DNA of 64,000 nt, taken from Celeribacter indicus. GTDB lineage: Bacteria; Pseudomonadota; Alphaproteobacteria; Rhodobacterales; Rhodobacteraceae. The DNA lies in assembly GCF_000819565.1 (NCBI RefSeq), contig NZ_CP004393.1:2728001-2792000 (forward strand), written 5' to 3'. The translations under genes were made by a program, and so were the position numbers. This document shows, in pieces, positions 40,195 through 58,330 of the stretch (position 1 is its first letter; each line of letters opens with the position of its first letter). The notes below the pieces were generated by a model that was given only the letters and a program-made list of their open reading frames with translations, did no database searches and had not been told where the DNA came from.

Positions 40195-40202
40195 CGGGAC
40201 AT

Positions 40203-40254
40203 CTCCGCGACGGGCGCCGAAGGCCTCTCCCCCGGCTTTCAATCCGTCACGGAG
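40203..40254 (-). promoter_or_regulatory. Hairpin leader with Shine-Dalgarno in 3' arm (copy A, before 173-aa gene)
   Basis: Minus strand: CCGTGACGGATTG ... GGCGCCCGTCGCGGAG. The two arms pair (CCGTGACGG with CCGTCGCGG, one G-U). The GGAG that serves as ribosome site is at the end of the 3' arm, 8 bases from ATG 40194. Confidence 0.65.
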
Positions 40255-40409
40255 CCCCCTCCCTTCTCTGCCTCTCTCTGTCCGGCGGCACCAATGGGGG
40301 CGCCCCTCCTTCAGGACGAAGCAGGCAAGAGGCCTGTTTCATCTGGATAGTATGATTGCGTTCGCGCTATGGTGTGGACACATATTGTAGATTTTACTTG
40401 GAGCGGATA

Positions 40410-40739
40410 TTGAGCAGAGTGGGTTTTATTTCTCTGGTGTCCTTCGCGTGCTTTGGCATTCCGGCACAGGCCCAGACCATTCCCCGTTACGATGTTGCAA
40501 GCTACTGCCAACAAGTCGCGGATGTTAGCGGTGGATCCGCGATGATCCGTAACGGCTGCATGGATATGGAACAGCAGGCTTATGACGTCCTGAAACCCGT
40601 TTGGTCACAACTGTCCGGCACTTCGCGCAATTACTGCGATGAGGTCGCGCGGGTTAGCGGTGGGTCTTATAGTATCCTTCAAGGCTGCATCGAAATGGAA
40701 ACCGATGCCGCGAGATCGCCTCGTTCCTTTGAATACTGA
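40410..40739 (+). CDS. Secreted protein with two cysteine-pair repeats
   Basis: 109 residues from TTG 40410 (GGAG just upstream); a longer frame from 40356 would put 18 charged residues before the signal peptide. The signal peptide ends at PAQAQ (about residue 21). Two repeats of the form YC-x2-VA-x-VSGGS-x3-I-x-GC-x2-ME follow. This repeat is seen in other uncharacterised alphaproteobacterial exported proteins. It is co-directional with two further envelope genes. Function is unknown. Confidence 0.75.
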   Translation: MSRVGFISLVSFACFGIPAQAQTIPRYDVASYCQQVADVSGGSAMIRNGCMDMEQQAYDVLKPVWSQLSGTSRNYCDEVARVSGGSYSILQGCIEMETDAARSPRSFEY

Positions 40740-40747
40740 GAATATTT

Positions 40748-41200
40748 ATGAAACCAGTTTCCACAATCCTGGCCGCCGCATTCGGTGCTCTCCTGTTCAC
40801 CCCAGCGCAGGCTGACTTCATAGACATCCGTTGGTCGGTTGTCGGTTTCACCGGCGAAGCGTGGTTTATCGACCCGCAAAGTGTCATCGGTCAGTCTCAG
40901 ACCTTCAATCGCGGATACGCAGAAGGCGTTTTCTATAACTGCGACTATGCTGGTCAGTCTTCCTCCTATACCCCGTATGACAATGACGCCTTTTTCACCA
41001 ATCCCGAATTTGAATTGTTCTTGCCGCTTCGCGAGGAAATGACGCTAAGCAGCGAAACCCTTTTTGTTCACCGCATCACTTGTGAGGGTGGCGGCAACCC
41101 AGCCAAGCGGCATGTGATGTATCCATTCGTCACGAACGAGGCGCGGAAGTCGGCTTGGTACCTGTTCGAAGGCGGGGTGTTCTCGCTCTATAACCCGTGA
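40748..41200 (+). CDS. Exported hypothetical protein, 150 aa
   Basis: 150 residues with a signal peptide (residues 1-22, cleavage after TPAQA). The mature part is beta-rich and aromatic (WSVVGFTGEAWFIDPQSVIG), with two cysteines (in FYNCDYAG and RITCEGGG) that could pair. No family is recognised. It follows the cysteine-repeat gene by 8 bases and precedes the coiled-coil membrane gene by 18, so they form one unit. Base composition looks less GC-rich than the conjugation genes. Confidence 0.75.
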   Translation: MKPVSTILAAAFGALLFTPAQADFIDIRWSVVGFTGEAWFIDPQSVIGQSQTFNRGYAEGVFYNCDYAGQSSSYTPYDNDAFFTNPEFELFLPLREEMTLSSETLFVHRITCEGGGNPAKRHVMYPFVTNEARKSAWYLFEGGVFSLYNP

Positions 41201-41218
41201 TCTGAAAGGGGCGTCGAA

Positions 41219-42259
41219 GTGAAAGCTTTTCTGAAAGGATTCGGCATTGTTGTTGCCCTGACAATCGCGGGCATGATCCTTGCAACGGTTGCGCCGAAAA
41301 TTGGGGTATGGGTCGGGCTGGTTTTCCTCGCAATACCTTTGGTGGCGGTGTTCAAACCTCTCCCCCAACTTCACTTGGGGCACCGCGCATTCAGCGCGTC
41401 CGTCGCGTTCTTTGTCGGACTTCTGACCACTGCAGCGTCCTATGGCCTCGTGTCGGATACGCAGCGCCTGGCTGATCTGCGGGCAACGGACCCTGCCGCC
41501 TATCTGGCAGAACTTGAAGATCGCGATCAAACCAAGTGGCTTTCGGAGTTGGAAGACCTGGCTCCCGAACGCTACGCCATAGAAGCGGCGAAGGTCGCTG
41601 AGGCAGAAGCGGCGCGCAAGGCCGAGGTTGAGGCTGCGGACGCCGCCCGAAAAGCTGAGGCTGAAGCCGCAGCCGCGGCGCGGGCGGAGGAAGTTGCGGC
41701 AACACGCCAAGCCGAACAGGCAGCTAAGGTTGCCAGCTATATCGAGCAATTGGACCGGGAGATGGCCTCTATCCCCGGCGTGCAGGCATCGAAGTATACC
41801 GGCGACGTTGCCACCATCAACACCGGCCTGTTGCTCATCGGTGCATGGGCATTGCTGTATGAGGAAGGCAACGCGCTGGATCTGAACGATGAAGCCCGGC
41901 AGAAGCGCCAGAAGTTCCGGCAGTTGCTTGTCCGCAAACAGATGGAGCTGCTGCCCATCATGCGAGACGCTTACGGCCCGGCGATGCGCCAGCAACTTTG
42001 GGAAGCGGACGGCAGCGCCCGGACTATCGGTGCGGGCTATCGCACAGTGGAATTCGTATCTGCGGCCTTCGCACGCAATGCCAATATCAAGCAGATCCAT
42101 TTGGAAATTCGGGAAAACCTCATGATGCTGAGGTTCACCCGCGCACAATATAAGTGGATCAAGCAGGCATCTGAGTTCAGCTATTACGATATGGATGTTC
42201 CAAAAGACTCTGATATCGTGAAATGGGAACGTGACGGAGGTTATCGGGTCCTTGACTGA
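41219..42259 (+). CDS. Membrane-anchored coiled-coil protein
   Basis: 346 residues. Hydrophobic segments at about 7-27, 29-48 and 60-80 form an N-terminal membrane hairpin or bundle. A long Ala/Glu/Lys coiled coil follows (about 120-175, KAEVEAADAARKAEAEAAAA). A globular C-terminus contains WALLYEEGNALDLNDEARQK and ends DIVKWERDGGYRVLD. No known family. Third gene of the 40410-42259 unit; the architecture suggests a cytoplasmic sensor or tether at the membrane. It overlaps the next, converging gene by 19 bases. Confidence 0.72.
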   Translation: MKAFLKGFGIVVALTIAGMILATVAPKIGVWVGLVFLAIPLVAVFKPLPQLHLGHRAFSASVAFFVGLLTTAASYGLVSDTQRLADLRATDPAAYLAELEDRDQTKWLSELEDLAPERYAIEAAKVAEAEAARKAEVEAADAARKAEAEAAAAARAEEVAATRQAEQAAKVASYIEQLDREMASIPGVQASKYTGDVATINTGLLLIGAWALLYEEGNALDLNDEARQKRQKFRQLLVRKQMELLPIMRDAYGPAMRQQLWEADGSARTIGAGYRTVEFVSAAFARNANIKQIHLEIRENLMMLRFTRAQYKWIKQASEFSYYDMDVPKDSDIVKWERDGGYRVLD

Positions 42260-42579
42260 CGGATGTTCCCAGATTTTTCTTTTTGTGCCTGTTTGGCGCA
42301 GATCCGCCCGATGCTGGTGGGGCTCAAGCTGAATTCCCGCGCCAGGCTTTTCATCGTTTCTCCGGCAAGGTTGCGTTCGTATATTTGCGCGTCCCTGTCG
42401 GCGTTGTCGGCGCGATTTTTCTGCACCTTATCAAAATCGTTCCGCTCGCTTTCGGTCCAAACCTTGTATACTTCCTTGTTGCGGTCCCGATTTCGGATCC
42501 GGACGACGTATCGTCCGTCCACCATGCCTCGCACCTCATAAGAACCGCCTGCAAATTCAATCCGGTCACCCAGACTCAT
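42241..42579 (-). CDS. Hypothetical protein with C-terminal helix-turn-helix
   Basis: 112 residues. An N-terminal KOW-like beta part (GDRIEFAGGSYEVRGMVDGR, YVVRIRNRD) is followed by a charged linker. A helix-turn-helix comes next, around residues 70-100 (YERNLAGETMKSLAREFSLS, TSIGRICAKQ), resembling sigma-region-4-like folds. It is convergent with the coiled-coil gene and probably transcribed separately. Function is unknown; DNA binding is likely. Confidence 0.65.
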   Translation of the reverse strand: MSLGDRIEFAGGSYEVRGMVDGRYVVRIRNRDRNKEVYKVWTESERNDFDKVQKNRADNADRDAQIYERNLAGETMKSLAREFSLSPTSIGRICAKQAQKEKSGNIRQSRTR

Positions 42580-42928
42580 GCCTCTGCCCTTTCACTGAAA
42601 ATACGAGGCATCAATAGCAGCAACACGACCGCATTTCCAACTGTCAGGAAACGGCGCGGGGGACGCATTGGAATGCCCGAGTCCCTCCTCTATCCCCTAT
42701 CTGCTTGGCAGCAACCCAGGCCGCGAAAGGCCTCGTGACCGTCAACGCCCCCTCATCGGAGCTGTTGCCCAGGACCTTTGCAACAGCCTGAGAGCGCTCT
42801 GAAAATCGAGCCTGGATCATAGGTGGCTCAGCGGTTCTGATGCAGGCAACTCCAGGCGCCTTGAGAGGCCGCGGCGCCGACGTCCGGGGGCAATGCGCCA
42901 GAGGGGGTGAATGAGGCGCTTGTGCGCT
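42580..42928. other. Gene-free stretch
   Basis: About 350 bases between two leftward genes. No gene, hairpin or repeat could be supported. Confidence 0.4.
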
Positions 42929-43093
42929 TCATTCAAAAGGATCCAGTTCCAGCTTCACCATGTCTTCGTCGCCGTCGAACTCATCGGCCGGCATGGCGCC
43001 GTGGGTTCCGTCCCCGGCTTGGAACACGACGATCACGACCATCAGAGTGGTGGCGAGGCTGGCGGCGAAAGCGGTGGCATCTGCATAGGACAT
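42929..43093 (-). CDS. Small membrane-anchored peptide, 54 aa
   Basis: A 54-codon gene from ATG 43093 with AGGAG 10 bases upstream. Residues 8-25 form a single hydrophobic helix (AFAASLATTLMVVIVVF), followed by an acidic tail ending MVKLELDPFE. Its leader holds a perfect hairpin (43118-43136). A 31-bp stretch of its 3' end recurs in inverted orientation at 43437-43467 (27 of 31 bases identical). Function is unknown. Confidence 0.65.
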   Translation of the reverse strand: MSYADATAFAASLATTLMVVIVVFQAGDGTHGAMPADEFDGDEDMVKLELDPFE

Positions 43094-43736
43094 CGGGATT
43101 GGCTCCTGTCACTGGAGGCGGGGGACCATCCCCCGCGCTGACCAGGCGCCCGACGTGTCTGACCGGATCTGCACTCACCCTCGGGCGTTCGGACTGGCTC
43201 CGAAGCCCCGAGGGCGGCACGCATGCGTAAGCCGACCCTTCATGGGTTGATTGTCAAAGAGACGGATCAGACCAAGGTTAGCGAATGGAAGCGGGGGTGG
43301 TGTCTTGCATCCGACAGGTGCCGGATCTCCCCTTGCAGATGCTTCGCCCGGCCAACCCTTACCGCAGCATCAACAGAGGAATTGCGTTACAGGCCGGAGA
43401 TGGGACCGAACCCATGGCACGTGCCTTGATGGGATGACGGGGACATGGTGAAGTTGGAACTGGAGCCGCCGCGTGACTCTCCGCCCCCTGTACACGGCAT
43501 GACGGTCATGCGACCTGACCGCTTGATGGGCGGTGGTGCGACAGTGGTTCTGGAGGCCAGGTCACAGCGCTCGAATGATCTGAATACAGAGCGATCCGCC
43601 GGGCAAAGCCCCGCAACGCGCACCTGCGGGCACAACAAATATGCCCATGTGCGACTTGTTTCGATCACGCCGATCTTTCCAAAACCGCGAGATTCAATTA
43701 GGATTCGACGAAAAGACAGACGACTGGGGCGACGCG
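43094..43736. other. Gap upstream of ietA: hairpin, and inverted relic of the 54-aa gene
   Basis: 43118-43136 is a perfect hairpin (GCGGGGGA, loop CCA, TCCCCCGC) in the leader of the 54-residue gene. 43437-43467 is an inverted, slightly diverged copy of that gene's 3' end, reading DGDMVKLELEP on the plus strand. The rest should hold the ietAS promoter; no clear one is seen. It looks like an insertion junction. Confidence 0.5.
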
Positions 43737-44744
43737 GTGTCAAATGCAAAACAGATACTGGCGATGCTCAGAAGCCAGGCGGAAGGCGATGAAGAACAGT
43801 TCTTCTCCATCGCGCTTCAGGTTGCGGCTGGTGAAGCCCGCCAGGGACACCGTGCGACCGCAGAGGATATCCGTGCGGCAGTAGATGCCGCACGTTCACA
43901 GCGCGGGACGCGGGCGTCTGTCCCGATCGCCTTTTCTCGGCCACGTGGAGACCTCGACAGCCTTCTCGATCTGCGGGACCCGCAGATCCATCTTGCCGAT
44001 GTGGTGCTGAATGCAGATGTGAAAGGTCATCTCGAAGCGGTTGTGCTTCAGCAACAGCGTCGGGATTGGCTCCGGGAACATGGGAAGACACCGAGCCGCC
44101 GCCTCCTCTTTGCCGGACCTCCCGGATCGGGGAAGACGATGACCGCCGAGGCGCTCGCGGGCGAACTCCATCTTCCTCTGTTCGTGATCCGTCTCGAAAC
44201 CCTGATCACGCGCTTTATGGGGGAAACGGCCGCCAAACTGCGTCTTGTTTTCGACGAAGCGCAGAAGCGCAGAGGTGTTTATCTCTTTGATGAATTCGAT
44301 GCCGTAGGCAGCAACAGGTTGGCGACGAATGATGTCGCAGAAATGCGGCGGGTACTGAACAGCTTCCTGCAGTTCATGGAAGAGCCTTCTGCGACCGACA
44401 GTGTTCTGGTGGCTGCCACGAACCATCCCTCTCTTCTCGACCGCGCGCTACTACGGCGCTTCGATGAAGTTCTGCAGTTCGAGATGCCATCAGCAGATGA
44501 AGTGCGCGCCATTATCAAGGCCCATCTGTCGCCGATGAAATATCCCAAGATCAATTGGAAAACCATTGTTGCCGCGGCCACCTGCCTCAGTCAGGCGGAG
44601 ATTGTCCATGCGGCAGAAGAGGCTGTGAAAGCCGCAATCCTTTCAGAACGAAATCAGATTTCCACCGCCGATCTGACGCGCGAGCTTCGCAAACGCCAGG
44701 CCATGAGAACGGTGTTCTCTGAAGAACAGGGGCACATTGGCTGA
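43737..44744 (+). CDS. ietA: IetA-like AAA+ ATPase of the IetAS defence pair
   Basis: 335 residues if started at GTG 43737 (MSNAKQILAMLRSQAEGDEE), which matches where the family N-terminus should begin; a longer ATG start at 43641 is possible but lacks a ribosome site. AAA+ core: Walker A GPPGSGKT (127-134), Walker B YLFDEFD (182-188), sensor-1 VLVAATNHPSLLDRALLRRF. Its partner gene overlaps by 8 bases and encodes a subtilisin-like protease. An ATPase-subtilase pair is the IetAS system, first described for plasmid incompatibility and later shown to protect against phage. Confidence 0.85.
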   Translation: MSNAKQILAMLRSQAEGDEEQFFSIALQVAAGEARQGHRATAEDIRAAVDAARSQRGTRASVPIAFSRPRGDLDSLLDLRDPQIHLADVVLNADVKGHLEAVVLQQQRRDWLREHGKTPSRRLLFAGPPGSGKTMTAEALAGELHLPLFVIRLETLITRFMGETAAKLRLVFDEAQKRRGVYLFDEFDAVGSNRLATNDVAEMRRVLNSFLQFMEEPSATDSVLVAATNHPSLLDRALLRRFDEVLQFEMPSADEVRAIIKAHLSPMKYPKINWKTIVAAATCLSQAEIVHAAEEAVKAAILSERNQISTADLTRELRKRQAMRTVFSEEQGHIG

Positions 44745-47238
44745 GTACGAGCACCGACATATCGACCTGAGCGGTCTTTCGACTATCCGCAATTACAAGT
44801 CCCCAGGCAGTAACGCCCGCCAACGGCCGCTTCAGCGTATCCGTGAGGAACATGGCCAGCGCATTGTCGGCGAACTGGAATCCGCCTTCGAGGCGTCTGA
44901 TCTCGGACGAGAGGATTTGGGGGCACCCGAGGGAACTCCAGCATCCGACGGCGTCTACCTTGAGGTGGAGCTCGCGCCCTCTGTGGGACCAACCACGCTG
45001 GAGAAGACGCGCGAGGGGACACGCCAGGGCGCCGTCACACTTTCCGAAACAGGCGCCCGTCGCATCGCCCTCTTCGTCCCCGACGAAACCAGAGATGTCT
45101 TTGAGGCGGTTTTCAGGGATTACGCCTTTACGGAAGTTGACGAAGGTGCCGAGGCCCCGAAGAAGTCCCGCGTCGAGCCTGTCGAGCATATCCGCGCCGC
45201 GCGCTTGCGAACGTTCTGGCGCGACGATCCCCTGGCTCTGCCCGATGATCCGCAGGCGGAAATGTGGTGGGCCTTGTGGTGTTTTGCCGACCGCCTCGAA
45301 CGTGTTGAGACCAGCGCTCAGCGGCTCGGCCTGACCGTCGGGGGAGAAGACAGCTGGCTGCACTTCCCCGAAGTCGTGGTTCTTCCAGTGCATGGGCGCA
45401 GAGCAGCGATCGAGATGCTGCTGTTTTCAACGGGAGGCATTTCCGAGATCCGGCGAGCGAGTGATACGCCGACAGTATTCACGGATGAACTCGAGGAGAT
45501 GGCGAACGCGTTCGTGGATGATCTGGCCGAAAGGATCACCTGGCCAGGCCGCGACGTGCCCGCGGTTTGCCTCCTTGATACGGGTGTGAACCGCGGCCAT
45601 CCGCTGATTGAACCTGCCCTGGCTCCCGGTGACATGCACGCTGTGCATGCTGATTGGGGGGTGGATGATGATAGTCCCAGCGGGCATGGATCCGGAATGG
45701 CCGGGCTGGCGCTCCACGGCGACCTGACAATGCCGTTGGGAGATGCGTCGCGTCCAATGCTTGCGCATCGCCTCGAGTCCGTCAAAATCCTTCCGCCGGA
45801 CGGATTCGAGCAAAATGATCCCGGCTCCTATGGTGCGATCACAACCTCCGCCAGCTCGCTTCCGGAGATATCGGCTGCCGAGCGGCCGAGGGTCTTTTGC
45901 ATGGCCGTGACGAATGAAAACCGGTCGGGAGCGGAGCCAACGGCTTGGAGCTCTGCTCTCGACCAGATCTCGGCGGGCGTGGACGCAATCGAGGAAGGCC
46001 CGGACCATATTCGGCGCCTTTTCGTCCAGGCGATCGGCAACATCGCGGACAGCTCGCGCGCCGAGGACATTGCCGATGGCGACGCGTTTCCGGGAGAAGA
46101 TCCTGCACAGGCATGGAATGTCCTGACGGTCGGCGGCACAACTCTGAAATCAGAAATCGCAGAGGCCGGTTACCGAGACTGGCGCGGATGGTCACCTCCC
46201 GGGGACCGCAGCCCCTACAGTCGGACGAGCGCGCTATGGCGCGCGGGGCAGTCGCCGATCAAGCCGGAGATCGTCTTTGAAGCTGGAAACCGCGCGCTGA
46301 GCAGATCGGGGTTCGAAGCACTGTCGGGCCTCCCTTCCCTCTCGGTGCTCACCACGGCGAAATCGATCGCTCCGCATCCGGTGACACCGTTCTGGGCAAC
46401 CAGCGCAGCGACAGCGCAAGCGGCACGGCTTACGACGCGGATCATGGCTGAGCACCCGGAGTATTGGCCAGAGACCATCCGCGCCCTGACCGTGCACAGC
46501 GCCCGGTGGACGCCGCATATGCTTGCGGAATTCAACGCGACCGCGTCAAAGTCGGACAGAAAGGCGCTCGCAAGAAAATACGGATACGGGGTACCGGATG
46601 TTCGGCGCGCCCTTGCTTCGGCCCGCGATGATCTTGCGTTGGTCGCCGAGCAATATATCCAACCGTTCCGGGTCGAGAATGGCAGCGTGCGCTTCTCGGA
46701 TGCTCATGTCTACCGCCTGCCCTGGCCCCGACAAGTCCTTGAGGATTTGGGCGACCAGCCTGTGCGCCTCAAGGTGACGCTCTCATATTTTGTAGAGCCG
46801 AACCCAAGCTTTGCAAGCGCGATTGATCCTGCCCGATATCAGTCTTTTGGGTTGCGCTTCGACCTCAAGCGGGCACGCGAAACCGACGGGAATTTCCTGC
46901 GCCGGGTGAACAAGGATGACCGTGGCGAAAACGACCCTCGCCCGATCAACGAGGACAACGACGGCTGGTTCTTCGGGCCGAAGTTGATCTCTGCCGGCTC
47001 CATTCACATGGATATCTGGGAGGGCAGCGCCGTCGAGCTCGTGGAACGTGATCTCCTCTATGTCTACCCGATCTCGGGCTGGTGGCGCGAAAGGCGAGCC
47101 CTGGGGCGAGCGAACAGCAAGGCCCGCTATGCGCTCGTTATCGGCATCGAAACCCCGGAGGTCGACGTCGATCTGATGACGCCCATCCAGACCGAAGTCG
47201 CGGCCTTGCTTCAGACCGGTATCGATATCGAAGTTTGA
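44737..47238 (+). CDS. ietS: IetS-like subtilisin-family (S8) serine protease
   Basis: 833 residues from TTG 44737, overlapping ietA by 8 bases, which indicates translational coupling. There is no signal peptide, so it is cytoplasmic. The S8 triad is visible: D281 (CLLDTGVN), H317 (SGHGSGMAG) and S556 (FWATSAATAQ). About 230 residues precede the protease domain and about 230 follow. In IetAS the protease is the presumed effector and the ATPase the regulator or recogniser; that division is inferred. Confidence 0.88.
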   Translation: MAEYEHRHIDLSGLSTIRNYKSPGSNARQRPLQRIREEHGQRIVGELESAFEASDLGREDLGAPEGTPASDGVYLEVELAPSVGPTTLEKTREGTRQGAVTLSETGARRIALFVPDETRDVFEAVFRDYAFTEVDEGAEAPKKSRVEPVEHIRAARLRTFWRDDPLALPDDPQAEMWWALWCFADRLERVETSAQRLGLTVGGEDSWLHFPEVVVLPVHGRRAAIEMLLFSTGGISEIRRASDTPTVFTDELEEMANAFVDDLAERITWPGRDVPAVCLLDTGVNRGHPLIEPALAPGDMHAVHADWGVDDDSPSGHGSGMAGLALHGDLTMPLGDASRPMLAHRLESVKILPPDGFEQNDPGSYGAITTSASSLPEISAAERPRVFCMAVTNENRSGAEPTAWSSALDQISAGVDAIEEGPDHIRRLFVQAIGNIADSSRAEDIADGDAFPGEDPAQAWNVLTVGGTTLKSEIAEAGYRDWRGWSPPGDRSPYSRTSALWRAGQSPIKPEIVFEAGNRALSRSGFEALSGLPSLSVLTTAKSIAPHPVTPFWATSAATAQAARLTTRIMAEHPEYWPETIRALTVHSARWTPHMLAEFNATASKSDRKALARKYGYGVPDVRRALASARDDLALVAEQYIQPFRVENGSVRFSDAHVYRLPWPRQVLEDLGDQPVRLKVTLSYFVEPNPSFASAIDPARYQSFGLRFDLKRARETDGNFLRRVNKDDRGENDPRPINEDNDGWFFGPKLISAGSIHMDIWEGSAVELVERDLLYVYPISGWWRERRALGRANSKARYALVIGIETPEVDVDLMTPIQTEVAALLQTGIDIEV

Positions 47239-47326
47239 TTCCTGCACGGCTCACCACCTCTCATAATTTTACCTTCCCCTTCATTGGGTGAGCTTTGGGT
47301 TTGACGAACTTCTTGGAAGGGTTCGC

Positions 47327-47633
47327 CTATTTGCGTTTGCCATTCGGACGCGCGATCAGTTTCTCAATTGCAGAATCAGCCATGCTTTCGCAGCCAATGG
47401 CCTCTGTGTAACGTTTCACGAGGGCCAGAGTTTTGTGGCCGGTTCCGTTCCTATCTCTTGCGCTGTGGCTCCAACCTCGCCCAAACGACGCGCGCACGCC
47501 TTCCTTAAGCCGTGGGCTAAACACTGGGGCAGCTTGGCCTCATCGGTTCTGCGTTGCATGAGATTGCCCAGTCCACCGGCGGAGCGGATGGTGCCTTTCT
47601 GCGTGGCTACAAAGGGGCCTCCTTTGATGTGAG
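47327..47633 (-). pseudogene. Tyrosine integrase remnant (C-terminal part, frameshifted)
   Basis: Minus-strand reading from 47633 gives GGPFVATQKGTIRSAGGL, then LPQCLAHGLRKACARRLGEV and GATAQEIG, the box-II region (HGLRKA) of phage-type integrases. After a one-base loss near 47447 the other frame continues TGHKTLALVKRYTEAIG to a stop at 47327, including the GHKT histidine and the nucleophile tyrosine. The N-terminal two thirds are gone. It cannot be functional; it marks former insertion of a mobile unit next to ietAS. Confidence 0.85.
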
Positions 47634-47753
47634 CTAAAGCGTTTTGCTTTTTATCTGAGACAGGGAAAAAGCAAAACGCAGTGCAACATATAAGCGTTGT
47701 GAGCGCTTCGCCCTAAATCTGTGATTCAGATTTAATGCGAAACGCTTTAATGG
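47634..47753. repeat. Inverted-repeat element with nested hairpins (MITE-like)
   Basis: Outer ends TAAAGCGTTTTGC (from 47634) and GCGAAACGCTTTA (to about 47753) are inverted repeats with one mismatch. Inside, GCGTTTTGCTTTTT pairs with AAAAAGCAAAACGC (47638-47681, 13-nt loop) and AAATCTG-TGATT-CAGATTT forms a second hairpin near 47715-47735. No coding capacity. It could be a miniature inverted-repeat element, an attachment remnant or a double terminator. Confidence 0.6.
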
Positions 47754-47855
47754 AATGAACGGCCTTCCCACTCACCGACATTCATGAGGAGAGCAGAGAA
47801 GCTCCAGAGGCAACCAAAAGGAGACATGGGAGGGTAACTACGCAGAAAACCTTGG

Positions 47856-49940: not shown

Positions 49941-50162
49941 CCACCCACCAATTGGCGGCCCCAAAAACCGCGCCGCACCCGGACCGTCAAATCTTTTATT
50001 TCTTTTCCTTTGCTATTCGGAGCCACGTCCTGTACCCAATAGGAGCAACGTTTTTTCCATCTGCATCCTGTCTCCCTTATCGGTTCCAGTCTGCCATTTC
50101 GATCAGACTGTGCCGGGCATCCGCATTCCCGTGGGCTGCAAAATAATCAAGGAGACATCACA

Positions 50163-50369: not shown

Positions 50370-50425
50370 TCTGACCGGTTTCGGACCCGGCGGTCATTGC
50401 CGGGTCCCACAACCAAGGAGGCTTC

Positions 50426-50644: not shown

Positions 50645-50707
50645 GCCGATTTCATGGGCTCAAGATGAAATTCCGGGATGTTTCCGGAATACGATGGAGG
50701 GCCAAAC

Positions 50708-50869
50708 ATGACACTCAAAAAGACCCCCGCAGGTGAGACCCCTGCGATGATGACCATTACTCAAAAGAAGAAGAAATCCGACCTCGGTTGGCATCATTTC
50801 TTTGAGCGCCTTGCGACAGAAAAGACTTTGGACACACGACAAGCCTTGCCGCAAAACGTCCAGGAATGA
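50708..50869 (+). CDS. Small basic hypothetical protein, 53 aa
   Basis: 53 residues from ATG 50708 with GGAGGG 6 bases upstream (MTLKKTPAGETPAMMTITQK). It has a lysine run KKKKS and an aromatic helix GWHHFFERLATEK. No family recognised. Last of three small genes after transglutaminase copy 1; a hairpin terminator follows about 110 bases later. Confidence 0.6.
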   Translation: MTLKKTPAGETPAMMTITQKKKKSDLGWHHFFERLATEKTLDTRQALPQNVQE

Positions 50870-50978
50870 CGTCATCTCTCTATAACGTATGGAAGATGGC
50901 GTTTTCGGTGGACCGACTGAGCGCGGTCAGGCTCCAATAGAGCCGATCAGCGTTCGTTGATGCACCACCGGAAGGTGA

Positions 50979-51011
50979 AGCGGCAGAGCATCGTCTCTGC
51001 CGCTTTGCTTT
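50979..51011 (+). terminator. Strong intrinsic terminator
   Basis: AGCGGCAGAG (50979-50988), loop CATCGT, CTCTGCCGCT (50995-51004), followed by TTGCTTTTA. The perfect 10-bp stem with a T-rich tail would end the csp and small-gene transcript. Confidence 0.8.
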
Positions 51012-51036
51012 TACAAACCGCGTTTCATGATTCCAA

Positions 51037-51190
51037 GCTTTCCAATTCCAATATACCGCCATTGATAATGCTACGAGGGTTCGCGCACTCAAAGTCTACG
51101 AGAAACACACTCAGACCAATGCAATCAACTTCGTGAACAACGTCATTGAAAAGTTCCCATTCCGCATCCGCGAGATCAGGATGGATAACG
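51037..51190 (+). pseudogene. Transposase fragment (IS481/IS3-like DDE core)
   Basis: Reading QYTAIDNATRVRALKVYEKH, then TQTNAINFVNNVIEKFPFRI and REIRMDN without stop, this is the middle of an integrase-core transposase. The family motif would be TDNG; here it is MDN and the similarity then ends. No start, terminal repeats or second half is present, so it is a scrap of an old insertion. Confidence 0.75.
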
Positions 51191-51286
51191 TCCTATGTCG
51201 GAAAATTCTGGCCGCTTAGGTCAGCAAGTCGTTTGGAATCCGGCTGACCGGGTACCTTTATAATGTTGCCCAGACGGGCTCTGCCG

Positions 51287-51544
51287 TCAAGAAATGATCT
51301 CTTCCATAGCAAACACAGGGTAAGGGGGACAACCTTGTCCCCTTCGCGGCGCCGATCCGTGGCCCGCTGCATAGCCGCCTTTGTCGGGCGGTAGCGCGAT
51401 AATTTCCCCTTGTTGGCCCCACGCTCCATGGGCCAGTGCGAGGTAGAGCGCCACGCGCAGGGCGTTGTCGTCCAACTCGTGGTCAGTGACCATCTCAAGC
51501 AAGTATTGCAGCTTGACCTTGCAGAAGGGCAAAGGCTCAGACAT
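51287..51544 (-). CDS. Hypothetical protein, 85 aa (possibly truncated)
   Basis: 85 residues starting MSEPLPFCKVKLQYLLEMVT after a strong GGGAGGGGG site. Residues 1-45 look like a true helical domain (DDNALRVALYLALAHGAWG), resembling the front of small plasmid DNA-binding proteins. The rest (GHGSAPRRGQGCPPYP) looks unfolded, so the gene is probably cut or shifted. Function is unknown. Confidence 0.4.
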   Translation of the reverse strand: MSEPLPFCKVKLQYLLEMVTDHELDDNALRVALYLALAHGAWGQQGEIIALPPDKGGYAAGHGSAPRRGQGCPPYPVFAMEEIIS

Positions 51545-52032
51545 TGCCCCCTCCCGAAATTGCGATCAGGCTCGCGATCTGGTATTCAGTTCGTGCAAAC
51601 TTTACGATTTGGCCGTTGACGCGGCTGCCAGCTCTGTCAGCGGCCTTTCGATTTTTAGCCCCCAGAAATGGTTCGCCAGAGGCTCAAAAAAACACAATTA
51701 AATTAAAAGGTTGGGTTTTCTGTCTCGTCAGCTCAAACTATTTAATTTCCTCACCCCTCGCAGTCCTCTCCCGACTGGGATGACACACTGCCCGCTTCGT
51801 GCGGGAGTGGGTTTTGGCCGGCATTGGGGAAGACCAAATTTTGTCTCCGTTTCCGGCTTCTGACCGCGTGCGATTAGGGGATGCCACCCTTCCTGCTTGA
51901 AGACGCGCATGAGGGCGCCGACCCCTCTTCGGAACTTCAGGTTTGCGATAGGGCAACCCCAGCTTGAGCTGACAGGACTGCCGTGCCATTGCTGAAACTC
52001 AGCCGAAATCTGACGGCGGGGCGGTACCTGCG
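51545..52032. other. Gene-free stretch
   Basis: About 490 bases. Only a small hairpin (CCCGC-TTCGT-GCGGG near 51791-51805) and an A+T-rich segment (51690-51715) are visible. No gene is supported. Confidence 0.4.
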
Positions 52033-53007
52033 TCACGGCCAAAGCATCCAGAGGTAGGCGACATATCCGGTTACAAGAACCGCGCCCTCACGCCGACCGA
52101 TCCTCAGGCCGGTAGCGGCAAACAGCACCAACAGAAGTGACACCGCCACCATCACGGGCGCGTCGAACCCTGCGATTTCGGATGGGACCTGTGACGGGGC
52201 GATAAGGGCGGTCGTTCCCCCGATCCCGAGAATGTTGTAAATGTTCGACCCGACCACGTTGCCGAACGCCACATCCCCATGGCGTTTCAAGGCGGCGATG
52301 ACCGACGTGATCAGCTCCGGCATGGAGGTGCCGACCGCCACGATGGTCAATCCAATCACCGTCTCGGAGACCCCGAACCCGCGCGCCAGCGCCACAGCTC
52401 CGCTCACAAGGAAAGATCCGCCAGCGACCACAAGTATCAAGCCGGCAAGGGCAATAAGAATGGGGACGGCGAGACGCTTCACCGCATGAGGCGGGGCGAG
52501 TCCCGGGTCGACCTCTGCCAGCGCCAGGCTCTTGTCGTGCAGGGCTCCTCCATCAGCCGCGCCCCTTTCCTGATGGATCACGAACCAGATGTAACCGATC
52601 AGCACGACCACGAGCCCTGCGCCCGCCATCCGCCCCATGGGCACGGCCCAGGCGAGCACCGCAAAGCCTGCTGCGACCGCCAGCATCACGATGGCATCCC
52701 TGCGAAGCGCGGACCGCGCAACAACGATCGGACAGATGAGGGCAGACACGCCTGCGATTAGAAGGATGTTCGCGATGTTGGAGCCCACAATATTGCCGTA
52801 AGCAATGCCCGGCGATCCGTTCAACCCCGCCTGCACCGATGTCACCAGCTCTGGCATTGAGGTTCCAAAACCCACGAGCGTCAGGCCGATCACCAGTGGT
52901 GAGATCCCGATGCGCTCGGCCGCCTGTACGGCCCCGCGCACCAGTAGCTCTCCCCCGGCAACCAGCAAAATCAGACCGCCCAGCAGCGGCACCCAGGTTT
53001 CAATCAT
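52033..53007 (-). CDS. Calcium/sodium antiporter (CaCA family)
   Basis: 324 residues from ATG 53007 (MIETWVPLLGG, GGAG upstream); the longer frame has no support. It has two inverted halves, each with the alpha-repeat signature: GFGTSMPELVTSVQAGLNG plus GNIVGSNIANILLI, and AVGTSMPELITSVIAALKRH plus GNVVGSNIYNILGI. About ten transmembrane helices. It exchanges Na+ for Ca2+ or similar cations at the inner membrane. Next to YnfA, it could be part of a small membrane cargo. Confidence 0.94.
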   Translation of the reverse strand: MIETWVPLLGGLILLVAGGELLVRGAVQAAERIGISPLVIGLTLVGFGTSMPELVTSVQAGLNGSPGIAYGNIVGSNIANILLIAGVSALICPIVVARSALRRDAIVMLAVAAGFAVLAWAVPMGRMAGAGLVVVLIGYIWFVIHQERGAADGGALHDKSLALAEVDPGLAPPHAVKRLAVPILIALAGLILVVAGGSFLVSGAVALARGFGVSETVIGLTIVAVGTSMPELITSVIAALKRHGDVAFGNVVGSNIYNILGIGGTTALIAPSQVPSEIAGFDAPVMVAVSLLLVLFAATGLRIGRREGAVLVTGYVAYLWMLWP

Positions 53008-53149
53008 GATTGCCACTCCACGGGCTGACGTCGACACGATCCCGATTATCTGGAAGGTCGCCCCCATCGCCGCAAGGTGCTGCGAAACATATATTTTTCC
53101 CGACCGCCGACCTCGGTGTGGCGCAGCAGGGCAGGACAGGCTCAGGGCA

Positions 53150-53473
53150 TCAGGCTGCGCGGGGACCAAGCAGGATGACGAAGGCGCCAAGGAGGCACAG
53201 ACTGCCCCCGGTCAGGTCCCACAGGGTCGGTCGCTGCCCCTCCATGCTCCACATCCAGAGCAGCGACGCGATGATGTAAACCCCACCATAAGCGGCAAAG
53301 GCGCGACCCGCGGCCTCGGTATCGATCAAAGCGAGCAGCCCGCCGAAGAGGACCAAGCTGGTCACGCCCGGCACGAGCCACCAGATCGAAGCGCCGCGCC
53401 ACCACGACCAGAGCGCGAAACAGCCTGCGATCTCGGCCAGGGCAGCCAGCGGGTAGATAAGAAAGGTCGTCAT
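53150..53473 (-). CDS. ynfA: YnfA family inner-membrane protein
   Basis: 107 residues, four hydrophobic helices, with the family signatures [17 protein letters not shown] and [15 protein letters not shown]. It resembles small multidrug-resistance transporters in fold; the transport role is debated. It precedes the antiporter gene on the same strand by about 140 bases. Confidence 0.93.
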
Positions 53474-53670
53474 GCGTCATGTCTCCGATGGAAAGCACGT
53501 CTCATTGAGGGCGGATGAAGGCCCTGCTTGGACAACAGTCCAAGTTGCCTTTAAGCGCGGATCGTCCGCACCTCTGGAAAGAAATGCCGACGATCGGGCC
53601 GAGATTGCAAAACCCACCGCGCCGATAAGCCCCGGGAAACTCCTTGCATGTTTTCAACGCGACGTAAGGC

Positions 53671-53976
53671 TCAATCCCAAAGACCATCAGCGATCTCGCG
53701 CGCAATCATGGCCCGAGTTCTCATCATCACCTCATCGCCGCTCGTGTCGATATGACCGTAAAATCGGGCATGACCGCCATTCGCGGCCCAATCGGCGTAG
53801 CGGCAGTATTCTCGCTTTTCGAGGCGAAAGACACGCATATCTTCGGCCCAATGCGGTTTCGGCTCCACCACCACGGTGATGCCGTCGCGGGTTTCCTCCC
53901 AGGGCAGCGTGCGCTCCGAAGGCGGGTTGGCGCTGTCCTCGCGGAAGATCTGGTCAATATCGATCGTTGCAGGCAT
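53671..53976 (-). CDS. Hypothetical element protein, 101 aa
   Basis: 101 residues from ATG 53976 (MPATIDIDQIFREDSANPPS). Acidic front, then EETRDGITVVVEPKPHWAED, MRVFRLEKREYCRYADW and a helical end TRAMIAREIADGLWD. It is downstream of parB, with a terminator hairpin ending about 20 bases before its ATG, the same arrangement as at 39604. Function is unknown. Confidence 0.7.
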   Translation of the reverse strand: MPATIDIDQIFREDSANPPSERTLPWEETRDGITVVVEPKPHWAEDMRVFRLEKREYCRYADWAANGGHARFYGHIDTSGDEVMMRTRAMIAREIADGLWD

Positions 53977-53990
53977 CAGGATTCTCCAAA

Positions 53991-54017
53991 GAAAAAGCCC
54001 GGTCACGAGGACCGGGC
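53991..54017 (-). terminator. Intrinsic terminator of parB, just before the next start codon
   Basis: Minus strand: GCCCGGTC, loop CTCGT, GACCGGGC, then TTTTTCTTT. Perfect 8-bp stem. It lies 57 bases after the parB stop and about 20 before ATG 53976. Confidence 0.85.
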
Positions 54018-54073
54018 GCGTTTCTGAAACGGAAGAGATGTGGCGGGGCAGCCAACGCCGCCCCACCTGAAGA

Positions 54074-56200
54074 TCATTCGGCGGCGACCATTGGCTGCTC
54101 CTCGCCCTCCGTGGCGTCTTCATCCTCGCCATTGCCGGCAAGGAATTCAGGCAGATCATCCGCCTCCGTGTCGCCCCCGGCATCCACCGCGATATCGGCA
54201 TCGCGATCTACCATGCGCAGCGGCTCCGGCAACCAGCCGGTTTCGGCCAGCAGGCGCTCGGCCTCCGTGGCCATATCGCTCTTCTTCAAATGGTCGATGA
54301 GCTGGGCGGCCCGCTCGCCGGCGCCCTCACGCACCGCCTCGATGATCCGCGGCTTGGTCACGCGACCGAGATAGTTGCCGACGGTCGGCCGCCAGCCCAC
54401 CGCCACCATGTCGAGGCCCGTCGCCCGCGCCAGCCGGTCGGCCTGGGACAGGCGCACATCGAGCCCGTGCTGGCTGACGCCCATGCCGCCATATGGGTTG
54501 GGCTTCTCGTGCAGCGCATTGACGCCGAAGCTGACGCAATGGGCGAGCAACTCCATCCGGGTGTCGTCGTCCTGATCGACCAGCCAGTCCCAGAGTGCCG
54601 CATCGTCGGCCGGGATATGATCGCCCCAGCGTTCGTGCCGCTCGGCGATGGCGCGCGCCGAGACGCTCTCCCCCAGGTCATCGGCCTGCGCCGGGAAATG
54701 AACCTCCCGGACATGAGCCTCGAGGCACCCCCTGGTGGACTGCGGCAGGAAGCAATCGGTGACCAGCCGATGCAGCAGCGCCGTCAGAGCCACATGCGGG
54801 TTTATCGCCACGGCGTCGCGGAGCGCCAGCGTGCGATGCGCAGTCAACTCGCTGACGAGGCGATCGGGCAGAGGCCGGATGGTTTCGACCTCATCGTCCT
54901 CCTCGGGTTCGGTCGCCGTGCAACCCACCATGATGACCGCGCGCTGCACACCACCGGACTCGCCGCCCTCGGGAGAACACCCATCGGCCCCCTGCCCTTC
55001 CTGACCTTCCACCACCTCATCGTCGGCACGGACATAGCCGCGCTCGACGGCAAGCTGGCCGTCGTGGCGGAGGCTGACGAAGACACCGGCACGGGCCATC
55101 TGGTCCGCGTCATAGCGCATCGGCCGGTTTTCGAAGGCCTCCAGTGCCTCCTCGATCTCGCCGAGACGGACATCCACCTCGTCGGGGAACTCGTCGGCCT
55201 GGGCATATTCCGCCTCCAGCCCGTAGAACTCGTCCCGCAGCTTCTCGCGCTCGGCGCGTTCCTCGTCGGTCAGGTCGATGGTGGTGCCGGTCAGGCGACG
55301 CAGGCCACTTGTATGGCCATAGGGGAAATCCGCCGCGACCTCGATCCACTTCCAGCCCTCGGCGGCGATGGTTTCTGCCTCGGTCTTCAGCTTCTCGCCC
55401 GCCAGCCGGTCGAGCAGCACCGGGTCCTGAAGCCAGCCGCCATCGTCCTGCTGGAAGAGATCGCGCAGAACATAGCCGCCCGCCGCCTCATAGGCCTCGA
55501 TGCCGACGAAGAGCGTCCGCTTGTCGGAAGCGCGCACCGTGGTCTCGGTCAGCATGCGACGGATGGTGTAGGGCTCCTTCTGCCAGCCATCCTTGATCGC
55601 CTCCCAGACCTGTTCTTGGCGGGCGTGGTCGTCAGAAACGGTGAAGGCCATGAGCTGTTCCAGCGTCATGCCGTCCTCGGCATAGGTCTCGAGCAGCGCC
55701 GGCGAGACCGAGACCAGGCGCAGGCGCTGCTTCACCACCTTGGCGTCGACGAAGAAGGCCGCGGCGATTTCATCCTCGCTCATGCCCTTCTCACGAAGGA
55801 CCTGGAAGGCGCGGAACTGGTCGAGCGGATGCAGTGGCGCGCGCTCGATATTCTCGGCCAGCGAAACCTCGTCGATTAGGATATCGTCTCCGGCCTCCGA
55901 GACGGTACAGGGAACCGGCGCGGTCTTGTTAAGGCGCTTCTGTTTCACCAACAGTTCCAGCGCACGATAGCGGCGGCCGCCAGCCGGCACCTCGAAGAGG
56001 CCGGTTTCCTGCCCTTCGGCGTCGAGCTCGGGCCGGACATGCAGGGACTGGATCAGCCCGCGGCGGGCGATGGACTCGGCCAGTTCCTCGACCGAGATGC
56101 CGGCCGTCACCCGCCGGACGTTGGACTGGCTGAGCACCAGCTTGTTGAAGGGGATGTCGCGCGAGGACGACATGGTGATTTTCTGCGTGGCAGTGGCCAT
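54074..56200 (-). CDS. parB: ParB/RepB-type partition-like DNA-binding protein (large)
   Basis: 708 residues. The ParB N domain (about 15-120) has LVLSQSNVRRV, GLIQSLHVRPE, VPAGGRRYRALELL and EVSLAENIERAPLHPLDQF. An HTH/KorB-like part follows (MSEDEIAAAFFVDAKVVKQR). The long remaining 500 residues, with acidic linkers and a poorly known C-terminal region, are typical of element-encoded ParB-like proteins, roughly twice the size of chromosomal ParB. It may act in stability or as nuclease or regulator. The hairpin leader (copy B) covers the ribosome site; a terminator follows. Confidence 0.92.
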   Translation of the reverse strand: MATATQKITMSSSRDIPFNKLVLSQSNVRRVTAGISVEELAESIARRGLIQSLHVRPELDAEGQETGLFEVPAGGRRYRALELLVKQKRLNKTAPVPCTVSEAGDDILIDEVSLAENIERAPLHPLDQFRAFQVLREKGMSEDEIAAAFFVDAKVVKQRLRLVSVSPALLETYAEDGMTLEQLMAFTVSDDHARQEQVWEAIKDGWQKEPYTIRRMLTETTVRASDKRTLFVGIEAYEAAGGYVLRDLFQQDDGGWLQDPVLLDRLAGEKLKTEAETIAAEGWKWIEVAADFPYGHTSGLRRLTGTTIDLTDEERAEREKLRDEFYGLEAEYAQADEFPDEVDVRLGEIEEALEAFENRPMRYDADQMARAGVFVSLRHDGQLAVERGYVRADDEVVEGQEGQGADGCSPEGGESGGVQRAVIMVGCTATEPEEDDEVETIRPLPDRLVSELTAHRTLALRDAVAINPHVALTALLHRLVTDCFLPQSTRGCLEAHVREVHFPAQADDLGESVSARAIAERHERWGDHIPADDAALWDWLVDQDDDTRMELLAHCVSFGVNALHEKPNPYGGMGVSQHGLDVRLSQADRLARATGLDMVAVGWRPTVGNYLGRVTKPRIIEAVREGAGERAAQLIDHLKKSDMATEAERLLAETGWLPEPLRMVDRDADIAVDAGGDTEADDLPEFLAGNGEDEDATEGEEQPMVAAE

Positions 56201-56207
56201 GTCAGGG

Positions 56208-56260
56208 TCTCCGTGACGGACGCCGGGGAGCCTCTCTCTCCGGCAACCAGCCCGTCACGA
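56208..56260 (-). promoter_or_regulatory. Hairpin leader with Shine-Dalgarno in 3' arm (copy B, before parB)
   Basis: Minus strand: CGTGACGGGCTGG ... GGCGTCCGTCACGGAGAC. The arms CGTGACGG and CCGTCACG pair perfectly; GGAG is at the base of the 3' arm, 8 bases from ATG 56200. Confidence 0.65.
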
Positions 56261-56316
56261 ACCCCCCACCCTCCTTTCCCTCTCATGGCCGAGCCGAGGA
56301 TGATCGCGCAGACCCA

Positions 56317-56805
56317 TCAGAGGTCGCCGCGGGCGCGCAGGATGGTCTCCCGGCCAGCCCCGGTGATGATGTGGTCGTGCAGTATCACCCCCAGGGACGC
56401 AGAGGCGTTTCGGATTTCTTTCGTCATCGCGAGGTCGGCCGCCGAGGGTTCGGGATCGCCGGCCGGATGATTGTGGACGATGATCAGCGCCGAGGCATTG
56501 AGCGACAGGCATCGCCGCAGCACCTCCCGGGGATAGACCGGGACATGATCGACTGTGCCGATGGCGAGGCATTCGTCGGAGATCAGCCGGTTCCTCCGGT
56601 CGAGATAGAGGACATGGAAGCGCTCCACATCACCTCTGATGGTGAGGGCGCAATAGTCGAGCACCGCCTGCCAGGACGACAGGACAGGGTTCTGATTGAG
56701 GTGGCGCAGCAGGATCTGCCGGGCCTCGTAGACCACGGCCTGCTCCTGGGCGGAGAACCGGAGCGGCTGCGGTTCGATGGCGGATATTCTCGTGTTTCGT
56801 GTCAT
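56317..56805 (-). CDS. radC: RadC family JAMM/MPN protein
   Basis: 162 residues from ATG 56805 (GGAG upstream). The JAMM-type metal site is visible as IVHNHPAGDPEPSAADL (H111, H113, D124), with PREVLRRCLSLNASALI before it. RadC-like proteins occur on most Tn4371-like elements; the old repair role is not supported and their real function is unknown. It lacks the HhH domain of the chromosomal protein, as is common for element copies. Its leader resembles, in weaker form, that of parB and ardC. Confidence 0.93.
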   Translation of the reverse strand: MTRNTRISAIEPQPLRFSAQEQAVVYEARQILLRHLNQNPVLSSWQAVLDYCALTIRGDVERFHVLYLDRRNRLISDECLAIGTVDHVPVYPREVLRRCLSLNASALIIVHNHPAGDPEPSAADLAMTKEIRNASASLGVILHDHIITGAGRETILRARGDL

Positions 56806-56813
56806 GGTCCTGT

Positions 56814-56863
56814 TCTCCAACGGGCAGCCGGCCGGGCGCCGAGCTTTCAGCGCGTCACGAGGA
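56814..56863 (-). promoter_or_regulatory. Degenerate copy of the hairpin leader (copy C, before radC)
   Basis: Minus strand: CGTGACGCGCTGAAAGC ... GGCGCCCGG ... CCCGTTGGAG. It shares the start and end blocks of copies A, B and D and the same GGAG-to-ATG distance, but the arms no longer pair well. Confidence 0.45.
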
Positions 56864-56915
56864 GAAGCGCCGCCCTCTTCCTTCGAAGAGCGCGGCGCAG
56901 AAGCTGCAGAACCCC

Positions 56916-57311
56916 TCAGGAACGCCGGGGCTCCGCATCGGGGCGTGTCCCGCCTGGCAGACGGCCCGAGCGATAAAGCAGGCGTTCTGCATCGCGAATG
57001 CTGCCGGTTTCGCGGGCGGCCTTGGCCCAGACCGAGATCGGGAAGTCCCCCGTGAACAGCAGATCCCGCTCGATACCCATGCCGAAGGGCAGCCGGATCG
57101 AGCGCAGTTCGTTGAGGCTCCAGGAGCCAAGTTCGGGGTAGCCAATGTCGGCCAGGCCAAACATGATGTCACCGTCCTCGTCGAGCTCGGTCGCAAGCCA
57201 GACACCGGCGCCAAAGGGATTGAAGAACTTCACGACCGGAATGTGATCCTGATCGCGATCGCGGCCATTCGCCAGCAAGCGGTCACGCTGTGTGTCGGTC
57301 AGGAGGATCAT
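56916..57311 (-). CDS. DUF2958 family protein
   Basis: 131 residues, MILLTDTQRDRLLANGRDRD, with the family pattern PVVKFFNPFGAGVWLATELD and FGLADIGYPELGSWSLNEL. Element and plasmid specific, of unknown function, very often encoded next to ardC. Start overlaps the ardC stop (ATGA), so the two are co-translated. Confidence 0.9.
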   Translation of the reverse strand: MILLTDTQRDRLLANGRDRDQDHIPVVKFFNPFGAGVWLATELDEDGDIMFGLADIGYPELGSWSLNELRSIRLPFGMGIERDLLFTGDFPISVWAKAARETGSIRDAERLLYRSGRLPGGTRPDAEPRRS

Positions 57312-58270
57312 GCCGCAGCCCTCCCTTCCGTCGGGGTCTGCCGCTCAACATCGGTGCTGTCGTCGGGCAGATGGGCCAGCAGCCAGTCGGCCGCCTTGCT
57401 GGCCTGCGAGGCGGCGCGGACGATGGCCCGCGAATCCTCGCGCATCACCTCCAGCCAGGAGCCGATGTAATCGGCGTGGCGCACAGTCGGGACGATCCCG
57501 AGCGAGGCGCAACAGAACGCGCTCGAAATCTCGGCGATCAGTTCCTCGAAGGCGTATTTCTTCGTGCCGAAGCCGCCCGAGAAATCCCGAGCCAATCGGG
57601 AGCTATGCCCCGTTGCGTGCCCGATTTCGTGCAGCGCCGTGCGGTGCCAGTTAATCGGCTCGAAATACGCTTGCGGAGGTGGCACCTGTACATAATCCTG
57701 CGATGGGACATAAAAGGCGCGGTTGCCGCCGATCCGAAAGTCGATGCCGGTCGCCCCGATCAGCGCTTCGACCCGCGGCTCGATCAGCCCGGGGGGTGGC
57801 GGCGGCGCCTCAACGGCGATGTCGTCGGGCAGCCCCTCGCATTGCGCCGCATTGAACACGGTAAAGCGCTTCAGGAACGGGATGCTGTTTGCATCTTCTC
57901 CGGTCTCCCGCGCGCGGCGCTTCTCGTCTTCAGGCGTGAAACGGTCGGCATAGACGACGGTCGTGCCCCGCTCGCCCTTGCGGACATTGCCGCCGAGCGA
58001 CAGCGCCTGGCGGAAGGTCAGCCACTGCTGGGTTGGATAGCCCTGCTGGATGACGGCACCCCAGAGGATCAGGACGTTGATCCCGGAATATTGCCAACCC
58101 GTGCTGGCGTTGCGCGGCATGGCGAGCGGCGCCTGCGCCGCCGCCGTTCCCCAGGGCTGGGCCCAGGGCAGCCGGCCCTCCTCCAGCTCGGCGATGATCT
58201 TGTCGGTAATGTCGTCATAAAGGTTCGTGCGCGGGCCGCTTTTGCGGGCTGCGCGATGCTCTCTGGCCAT
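57308..58270 (-). CDS. ardC: ArdC family antirestriction protein
   Basis: 320 residues. The N-terminal ssDNA-binding domain has LPWAQPWG, NASTGWQYSGINVLILWGA and GERGTTVVYADRF. The C-terminal zincin-like domain has HEIGH at 214-218 and a downstream glutamate in FEELIAEISSAF. ArdC proteins coat incoming single-stranded DNA and protect it from restriction in the recipient. First gene of the ardC-DUF2958 unit, with the hairpin leader (copy D) covering its ribosome site. Confidence 0.94.
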   Translation of the reverse strand: MAREHRAARKSGPRTNLYDDITDKIIAELEEGRLPWAQPWGTAAAQAPLAMPRNASTGWQYSGINVLILWGAVIQQGYPTQQWLTFRQALSLGGNVRKGERGTTVVYADRFTPEDEKRRARETGEDANSIPFLKRFTVFNAAQCEGLPDDIAVEAPPPPPGLIEPRVEALIGATGIDFRIGGNRAFYVPSQDYVQVPPPQAYFEPINWHRTALHEIGHATGHSSRLARDFSGGFGTKKYAFEELIAEISSAFCCASLGIVPTVRHADYIGSWLEVMREDSRAIVRAASQASKAADWLLAHLPDDSTDVERQTPTEGRAAA

Positions 58271-58277
58271 CGGAATG

Positions 58278-58330
58278 ATCTCCGCGACGGGCGCCGGAGG
58301 CCTCTCCTCCAGTCCTCAACCCGTCACGGA
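58278..58330 (-). promoter_or_regulatory. Hairpin leader with Shine-Dalgarno in 3' arm (copy D, before ardC)
   Basis: Minus strand: CCGTGACGGGTTGAGG, inner GGAGG-AGAGG-CCTCC stem, then GGCGCCCGTCGCGGAG. CCGTGACGGG pairs with CCCGTCGCGG (one G-U). GGAG ends 9 bases before ATG 58270. Confidence 0.7.

Follow-up and report, generated by a model that had tools for sequence, protein, structure and literature searches.

A covarying hairpin leader upstream of ardC, parB-like and further genes on probable conjugative or mobilizable elements of Alphaproteobacteria

Described leaders and the copies in Celeribacter indicus

The radC RNA motif precedes DNA-modification and antirestriction genes. In the parts of the original report considered here, this motif (RF01754) is presented as a probable cis-regulatory element of Proteobacteria, and the same report introduces the STAXI motif, which lies near genes for antirestriction proteins, integrases and ssDNA-binding proteins and may form a structure in ssDNA (PMC2864571). 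On the pLS20-family plasmids of Bacillus, repeated conserved regions termed EGeRS1, with a predicted RNA or ssDNA structure, are located directly before the ribosome sites of establishment operons, that of ardC included, and define an establishment regulon; in the sections consulted, the authors state that there is no evidence for an ssDNA- or RNA-dependent mechanism (PMC8708921). Closest in kind to the leader described here are EGeRS1 and the radC RNA motif. In the literature considered, the timing of anti-defence genes in conjugative elements has been worked out for few plasmids, and a covarying leader before several gene families offers a testable RNA-level answer to this problem as well as a handle for a trans-acting factor.

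The window, i.e., the whole stretch of 64,000 nucleotides of the C. indicus genome that was analyzed, contains three strong leaders, preceding a gene for a 173-aa protein, a parB-like gene and ardC, and one decayed leader before radC, all on the minus strand. The palindrome pattern CGTGACGG...CCGTCRCG gave four matches at three places (40206-40251, 56212-56259 and 58283-58328), the parB copy being matched on both strands. A mere 0.02 matches were expected by chance and four were reached in none of 100 shuffles, which places the claim of the preliminary description, one and the same leader before these three genes, on firm ground. It had also described a GGAG closing the 3' arm at 8-9 bases from the ATG, and this is what all three strong copies exhibit: the final G of the arm doubles as the first one of GGAG, followed by a gap of 8 bases for the 173-aa gene and parB and of 9 bases for ardC.

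In a search with R1, a model built from 25 seeds, the window leaders scored 79.3 (ardC), 78.3 (173-aa gene) and 63.7 bits (parB) with E values from 2e-23 to 2.5e-18, and these scores are not independent of the model, as the 173-aa and parB copies and also a near relative of the ardC copy were among the seeds. The match for ardC (58268..58340) comprises the stem-loop CGTGACGGG...CCCGTCGCG at 58283-58328, GGAG at 58283-58280 and the ATG at 58270-58268 and leads into a gene (57308..58270) for a 320-aa protein with ArdcN and MPTase-PolyVal domains. That for parB (56198..56271; stem-loop 56212-56259, ATG 56200-56198) precedes a gene for a 708-aa protein with a ParB_N domain (54074..56200). The third (40192..40263; stem-loop 40206-40251, ATG 40194-40192) belongs to the 173-aa gene (39673..40194), whose product has no Pfam match and groups with a leader-bearing 182-186 aa family by single-linkage blastp (1e-4).

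Further genes on the same strand of the window encode a relaxase-like protein (DUF3363), a coupling protein, a replication initiator, a Toprim protein and a Strawberry-notch-type protein. The genes for the T4SS coupling protein and the relaxase-like protein (18228-22010, minus strand) indicate that the island is either conjugative or mobilizable; a scan of 20 frames, a subset of all frames, matched no further type IV secretion family. The leader-bearing genes as a group probably belong to such elements of Alphaproteobacteria. Among the 109 records matching in a plasmid search, 67 are predicted to be non-mobilizable and 38 to be conjugative. Divergent from ardC in the window lies a gene for a DUF6088/AbiEi-type antitoxin (58979-59572, plus strand). 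On a Ketogulonicigenium plasmid (L169, 36707-37502), genes for DUF6499 and DUF2285 overlap, an arrangement described for the frameshifted activator FseA in the part of the respective report considered (PMC10359603).

Distribution across gene families and taxa

The R1 model was searched through 80 loci collected by ArdC. It returned 227 matches at E <= 1, and 196 of these lie at E <= 1.2e-12, without exception on the ardC strand; the 31 weaker ones are made up of 15 radC copies, 15 matches on the reverse strand, all but one of which echo a palindromic leader, and one other. By eye, a leader is visible at 79 ArdC starts (60 distinct upstream sequences). A pattern parsed 78 of them, and the 79th (L122) is leader-bearing as well. 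The 80th locus (L087) has no model match before ardC and was excluded from the inspection of ArdC starts and from the ardC tree since its ArdC match begins at residue 8. A stricter pattern, which itself demanded GGAG with a start codon 4-12 nt downstream, yielded 186 leaders in the same 80 loci, all 186 on the ardC strand and 183 with the ATG 7-9 nt past GGAG. The genes that follow encode ArdC (77), ParB (69), members of a 180-186 aa family (39) and, in one case, a 94-aa frame. A broader set of 105 matches, 104 of which are followed by a frame, comprises ParB (44), ArdC (27), DUF932-like proteins (12) and the 182-186/173-aa family (11), the remainder being a pair of short relatives and eight singles, L132 (see below) among them; five of the eight are frames of 5-29 aa. 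The DUF932 assignment is based on an E value of 5e-4, under the Pfam cut-off (20.3 versus 23 bits), together with the annotation of the records. The leader is thus narrowly placed before the start codons of a coherent set of four gene families; note that this placement is partly built in, as pattern and model include the start codon, while the long frames that follow are not. Any gene after a leader is a candidate settling gene, and the leader therefore serves as a marker for more such genes.

A degenerate copy had been described before radC. In the window alone, this copy (56803..56871, minus strand; ATG 56805-56803) reaches 11.7 bits at an E value of 0.21, which is not significant on its own, and precedes a gene for a 162-aa protein with a RadC JAB domain (56317..56805, minus strand). 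It is the relatives that lend it support. The 15 radC copies among the weaker model matches in the ArdC loci lie directly before the gene (best 24.4 bits, E 2.9e-4) and another search added one more; 15 of these 16 are followed by an open frame with an HNHP motif, while the locus of the remaining one ends within the frame. All 16 retain a GACG/CGTC core and eight have TTCTCC facing GGAGAA. Upstream of them, GAG-N3-GAG occurs in 6, RAG-N3-RAG in 10 and NAG-N3-GAG in 15.

The C. indicus genome carries ten strong leaders. Six are on the largest contig, three of these beyond the limits of the window, and two further contigs account for the remaining four. About 90 nt past one of its leaders (L132, C4:18923) an apparent transposase gene is found, and this leader seems to have been severed from its gene by the insertion. 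In a family-level sample, 27 of 295 genomes had a pattern match, some of them by chance, and a reversed control pattern gave four matches in the same 295 genomes. Pattern rows judged by eye to be due to chance were dropped (L009, L017, L018, L025 and L034 from the 295-genome search, L003 and L007 from another search). Matches were present in 28 of 385 genomes of a class sample and in 34 of 398 of a phylum sample, the C. indicus genome being counted in both, and all matching genomes of the phylum sample belong to the window's own class. The nearest named records of the ArdC loci are mostly Rhodobacteraceae and other Alphaproteobacteria. One leader-bearing ardC locus (L081) resides in a metagenome assembly labelled Thiocapsa, a gammaproteobacterium, which may reflect transfer out of the class or misbinning.

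Fold, covariation and conserved boxes

The leader folds into a hairpin of two parts: the outer stem (CGUGACGGG/CCCGUCRCG) is nearly invariant, whereas the inner one covaries and is capped by an AGAGG loop. RNAalifold, applied to the MAFFT alignment of the 25 seeds, predicted both the outer and the inner helix, and six of the 18 predicted pairs are doubly changed. A larger alignment, A5, holds 102 distinct leaders drawn from 69 loci, 15 of them among the 80 ArdC loci, with near-duplicates omitted. Here, 96.4% of the cells pair, both sides change in 16 of the 18 pairs (142 cells) as against 7.4 pairs in shuffles, and the covariation score is 0.360 compared with 0.203 for shuffled alignments (reached in 0 of 500) and no more than 0.096-0.098 after sliding. 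Being fitted to the model, A5 leans to pairing, and its shuffle test ignores relatedness, which can inflate the result.

Gene trees were used to count events instead of sequences. On the ardC tree (78 leaders), 16 of 53 changes are compensatory and four break a pair; on the parB tree, which contains one leader per locus and 54 of the 69 parB leaders found by pattern, the corresponding figures are 10 of 29 and three; both tests took the best-pairing register of the inner arms and are biased toward structure. In the parB tree set, 35 of the 54 leaders pair seven of the eight inner positions, not eight. The compensatory changes on both trees are all located in the inner stem. Covariation of the outer stem is understated because seeds and tree rows were picked by this nearly fixed stem, and compensated outer pairs are present in the model-found set, e.g., in L147, L160 and L164. 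The covariation check that had been proposed in the preliminary description is thus positive, and the compensatory changes support a structured mRNA leader of the sense strand. That position and pairing are kept has held up as well. The loop, in contrast, is not the variable part it had been taken for: the terminal AGAGG is found in 70 of the 102 distinct leaders, and it is the inner stem that varies.

The polarity of the remaining changes is informative about the acting strand. One-sided changes on the ardC tree lead into G-U in 22 cases and into A-C in two (p 3.6e-5), those on the parB tree in 10 and two cases, respectively (p 0.039), and the stem cells of A5 contain 241 G-U versus 33 A-C. 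As there is no reason for a G-U excess in a duplex site, these data point to a leader that acts as a single strand of mRNA sense, that is as RNA or, less likely, as ssDNA.

A second box, best read as AGAG-NN-AGAG, begins 23-32 nt ahead of the conserved TGACGG. GAG-N3-GAG is present in 82 and RAG-N3-RAG in 98 of 101 copies, and mononucleotide shuffles average 1.2% and 2.4%. In the window, the box appears as GAGAGTGAGAG (AGAG-NN-AGAG, 58344..58354) upstream of the ardC hairpin, as GAGGGAAAG (RAG-N3-RAG, 56274..56282) upstream of the parB hairpin and as GAG-GCA-GAG (40266..40274) upstream of that of the 173-aa gene, always on the minus strand. The combination of a variable stem with a fixed purine box on either side suggests that a protein or another RNA may recognise them, although the AGAG box might also be a site in DNA. 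Whether this box pairs with the inner 3' arm was considered by eye, and the idea was dropped as the arm changes and the box does not. An upstream frame closed by the conserved TGA in the stem was likewise weighed by eye and set aside, since the distance to the AGAG box varies and no frame is fixed.

Outside the common leader and directly upstream of it, ardC has a distal conserved region (58357..58431, minus strand) that consists of GGGGAAAGCCTTCCCC, a variable middle and a second palindrome. The palindromes GGGGAA..TTCCCC and, in most copies, GCGGGG..CCCCGC flank its variable part. The region occurs in 62 copies in the loci examined (44 variants, some loci overlapping), with GACGG at most 60 nt downstream in 43 of the 44 variants and a variant leader downstream in the remaining one, and it is also found before DUF932-like genes. 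It was set apart from the leader RNA in view of its invariant palindromes and a predicted consensus without any doubly changed pair, the latter suggesting that it is possibly a DNA site.

Ribosome site, alternative readings and comparison with known systems

Of the 101 A5 cells at each position of GGAG, 94 are paired at the first G, 95 at the second, 65 at the A and 81 at the last G. The A and the last G, whose partners are upstream pyrimidines, are nearly devoid of covariation because the ribosome site itself is fixed. Pairing beyond GGAG was rejected, as 53 and 40 of the 101 cells in A5 columns 10 and 11 do not pair. The one candidate for a second state, a mini hairpin immediately 5' of the main stem that would compete with it, is convincing by eye and barely better than shuffles (p 0.029). 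Compared with 300 other starts carrying GGAG at 7-9 nt, the leaders are predicted to be stabler (mean -39.7 versus -25.7 kcal/mol over 75 nt) and their GGAG to be less often unpaired, with a mean probability of 0.19 versus 0.27 (p 6.5e-4), a small effect. On these predictions, the ribosome site appears to be partly held by the hairpin, and an action of the leader on translation is likely. Of the earlier proposal, selection for an RNA structure whose 3' arm carries the ribosome site at its base is supported by the compensatory changes, the G-U excess and the narrow start distance, whereas the translational switch does not follow from a modest drop in access with neither a second state nor a trans factor found.

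We favour, with a probability of roughly 0.7, a cis-acting structured 5' mRNA leader that is shared by genes for ArdC, ParB-like, DUF932-like and 182-186 aa proteins, is decayed in front of those for RadC, lowers translation and allows a common trans-acting factor to co-ordinate these genes. The comparisons support that the final base pairs of the outer stem take up the first two G of GGAG; the hairpin, by holding the ribosome site, would lower translation. A hypothetical factor common to the leaders would read the AGAG box and the loop and set the output of an equally hypothetical switch. The leader-bearing genes would in this way be co-ordinated post-transcriptionally, plausibly around establishment in the recipient; gene content and the analogy with Bacillus pLS20 suggest that they may be needed early in a new host. 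A more far-reaching version, which we put forward tentatively and at somewhat less than even odds, is an undescribed RNA family forming a post-transcriptional establishment regulon, in which one RNA-binding factor reads the doubled AGAG box and the AGAGG loop of many leaders simultaneously and sets how strongly the antirestriction, ParB-like and further settling genes of alphaproteobacterial conjugative elements are translated.

The hairpin might instead serve mRNA stability or RNase III processing, or act as an attenuation or antitermination element, in each case without a direct effect on ribosome access. We regard this as unlikely. Such roles would agree with a long and very stable helix and, according to the part of the report considered, Bacillus EGeRS1, which is also situated just before the ardC ribosome site, stops read-through from an upstream promoter (PMC8708921). 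However, they have no need for the narrow distance to GGAG and ATG that is kept in four gene families, and a run of four T follows the stem in just 3 of the 102 distinct leaders and a run of five in none.

Less probable still is an ssDNA hairpin active in the transferred strand, where it would be a promoter of the Frpo kind or would be bound by ArdC or a different ssDNA-binding protein. The G-U bias is compatible with it, as ssDNA tolerates G-T pairs, and typing of three plasmid relatives classed them as conjugative, MOBP and MPF_T. Moreover, in the portions of the literature consulted, ArdC-N is described as ssDNA-binding (PMC5512222) and Frpo ssDNA promoters are known from leading regions (PMC11541004). 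The hairpin holds the ribosome site and ends 8-9 nt before the ATG, though, which leaves no room for a leadered transcript starting at or after it, and no -10/-35-like pair is seen in it by eye. A duplex operator, where a dimeric protein bound to the palindrome would repress transcription of the downstream genes, had been named as the alternative in the preliminary description and is just as improbable: a nearly invariant outer stem is expected of an operator and several copies exist within one genome, but G-U and A-C changes should then be equal rather than 22 versus 2 and 10 versus 2, one outer position is most often occupied by U-G (68 of 100 cells), which spoils a DNA palindrome, inner-stem changes come as compensated pairs, and a simple duplex sigma-70 scan found no promoter-like site at 58200-58800.

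The covarying RNA leader is real, is without a match in Rfam 15 and was not met in the literature searched. The earlier statement that no element of this kind has been described holds in this sense, i.e., for Rfam 15 at the leaders tested and for titles and abstracts in one library. At the leaders of the window and of 15 related loci, no Rfam 15 family was above threshold, sub-threshold matches around the ardC leader reaching at most 14.1 bits. For the radC RNA (RF01754), the best match in the C. indicus genome had 16.7 bits compared with a curated cut-off of 40, which none exceeded, and there was no match in the window at E <= 10 or in the 15 related loci at E <= 2. A search of a paper on Mesorhizobium elements (PMC8627217) for ardC, parB and DUF2958 gave no hit, and the ardC leader had no match in a phage collection.

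EGeRS1 and the leader described here are alike in being repeated, structured (by prediction in EGeRS1) and positioned right before ribosome sites including that of ardC. As portrayed in the parts of the paper considered, EGeRS1 is a multi-branched region of 400-750 bp in Bacillus, whereas the present leader is about 75 nt long, has the ribosome site in its stem and covaries. The radC RNA is represented by a model of 149 positions, the 40-bit cut-off of which no match in the C. indicus genome reaches. STAXI, judged by its description, is composed of repeated pseudoknots, often with UUCG loops, in contrast to one hairpin per start. Frpo/ssi promoters contain -10 and -35 elements; the present stem leads into a ribosome site and start codon instead. 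In its GAG-N3-GAG box, the leader is reminiscent of TRAP targets with their spaced GAG motifs. SD-sequestering leaders, such as RNA thermometers and those of the CsrA or TRAP type, have their ribosome site in a stem, and in this respect, as far as their description goes, the present leader resembles them.
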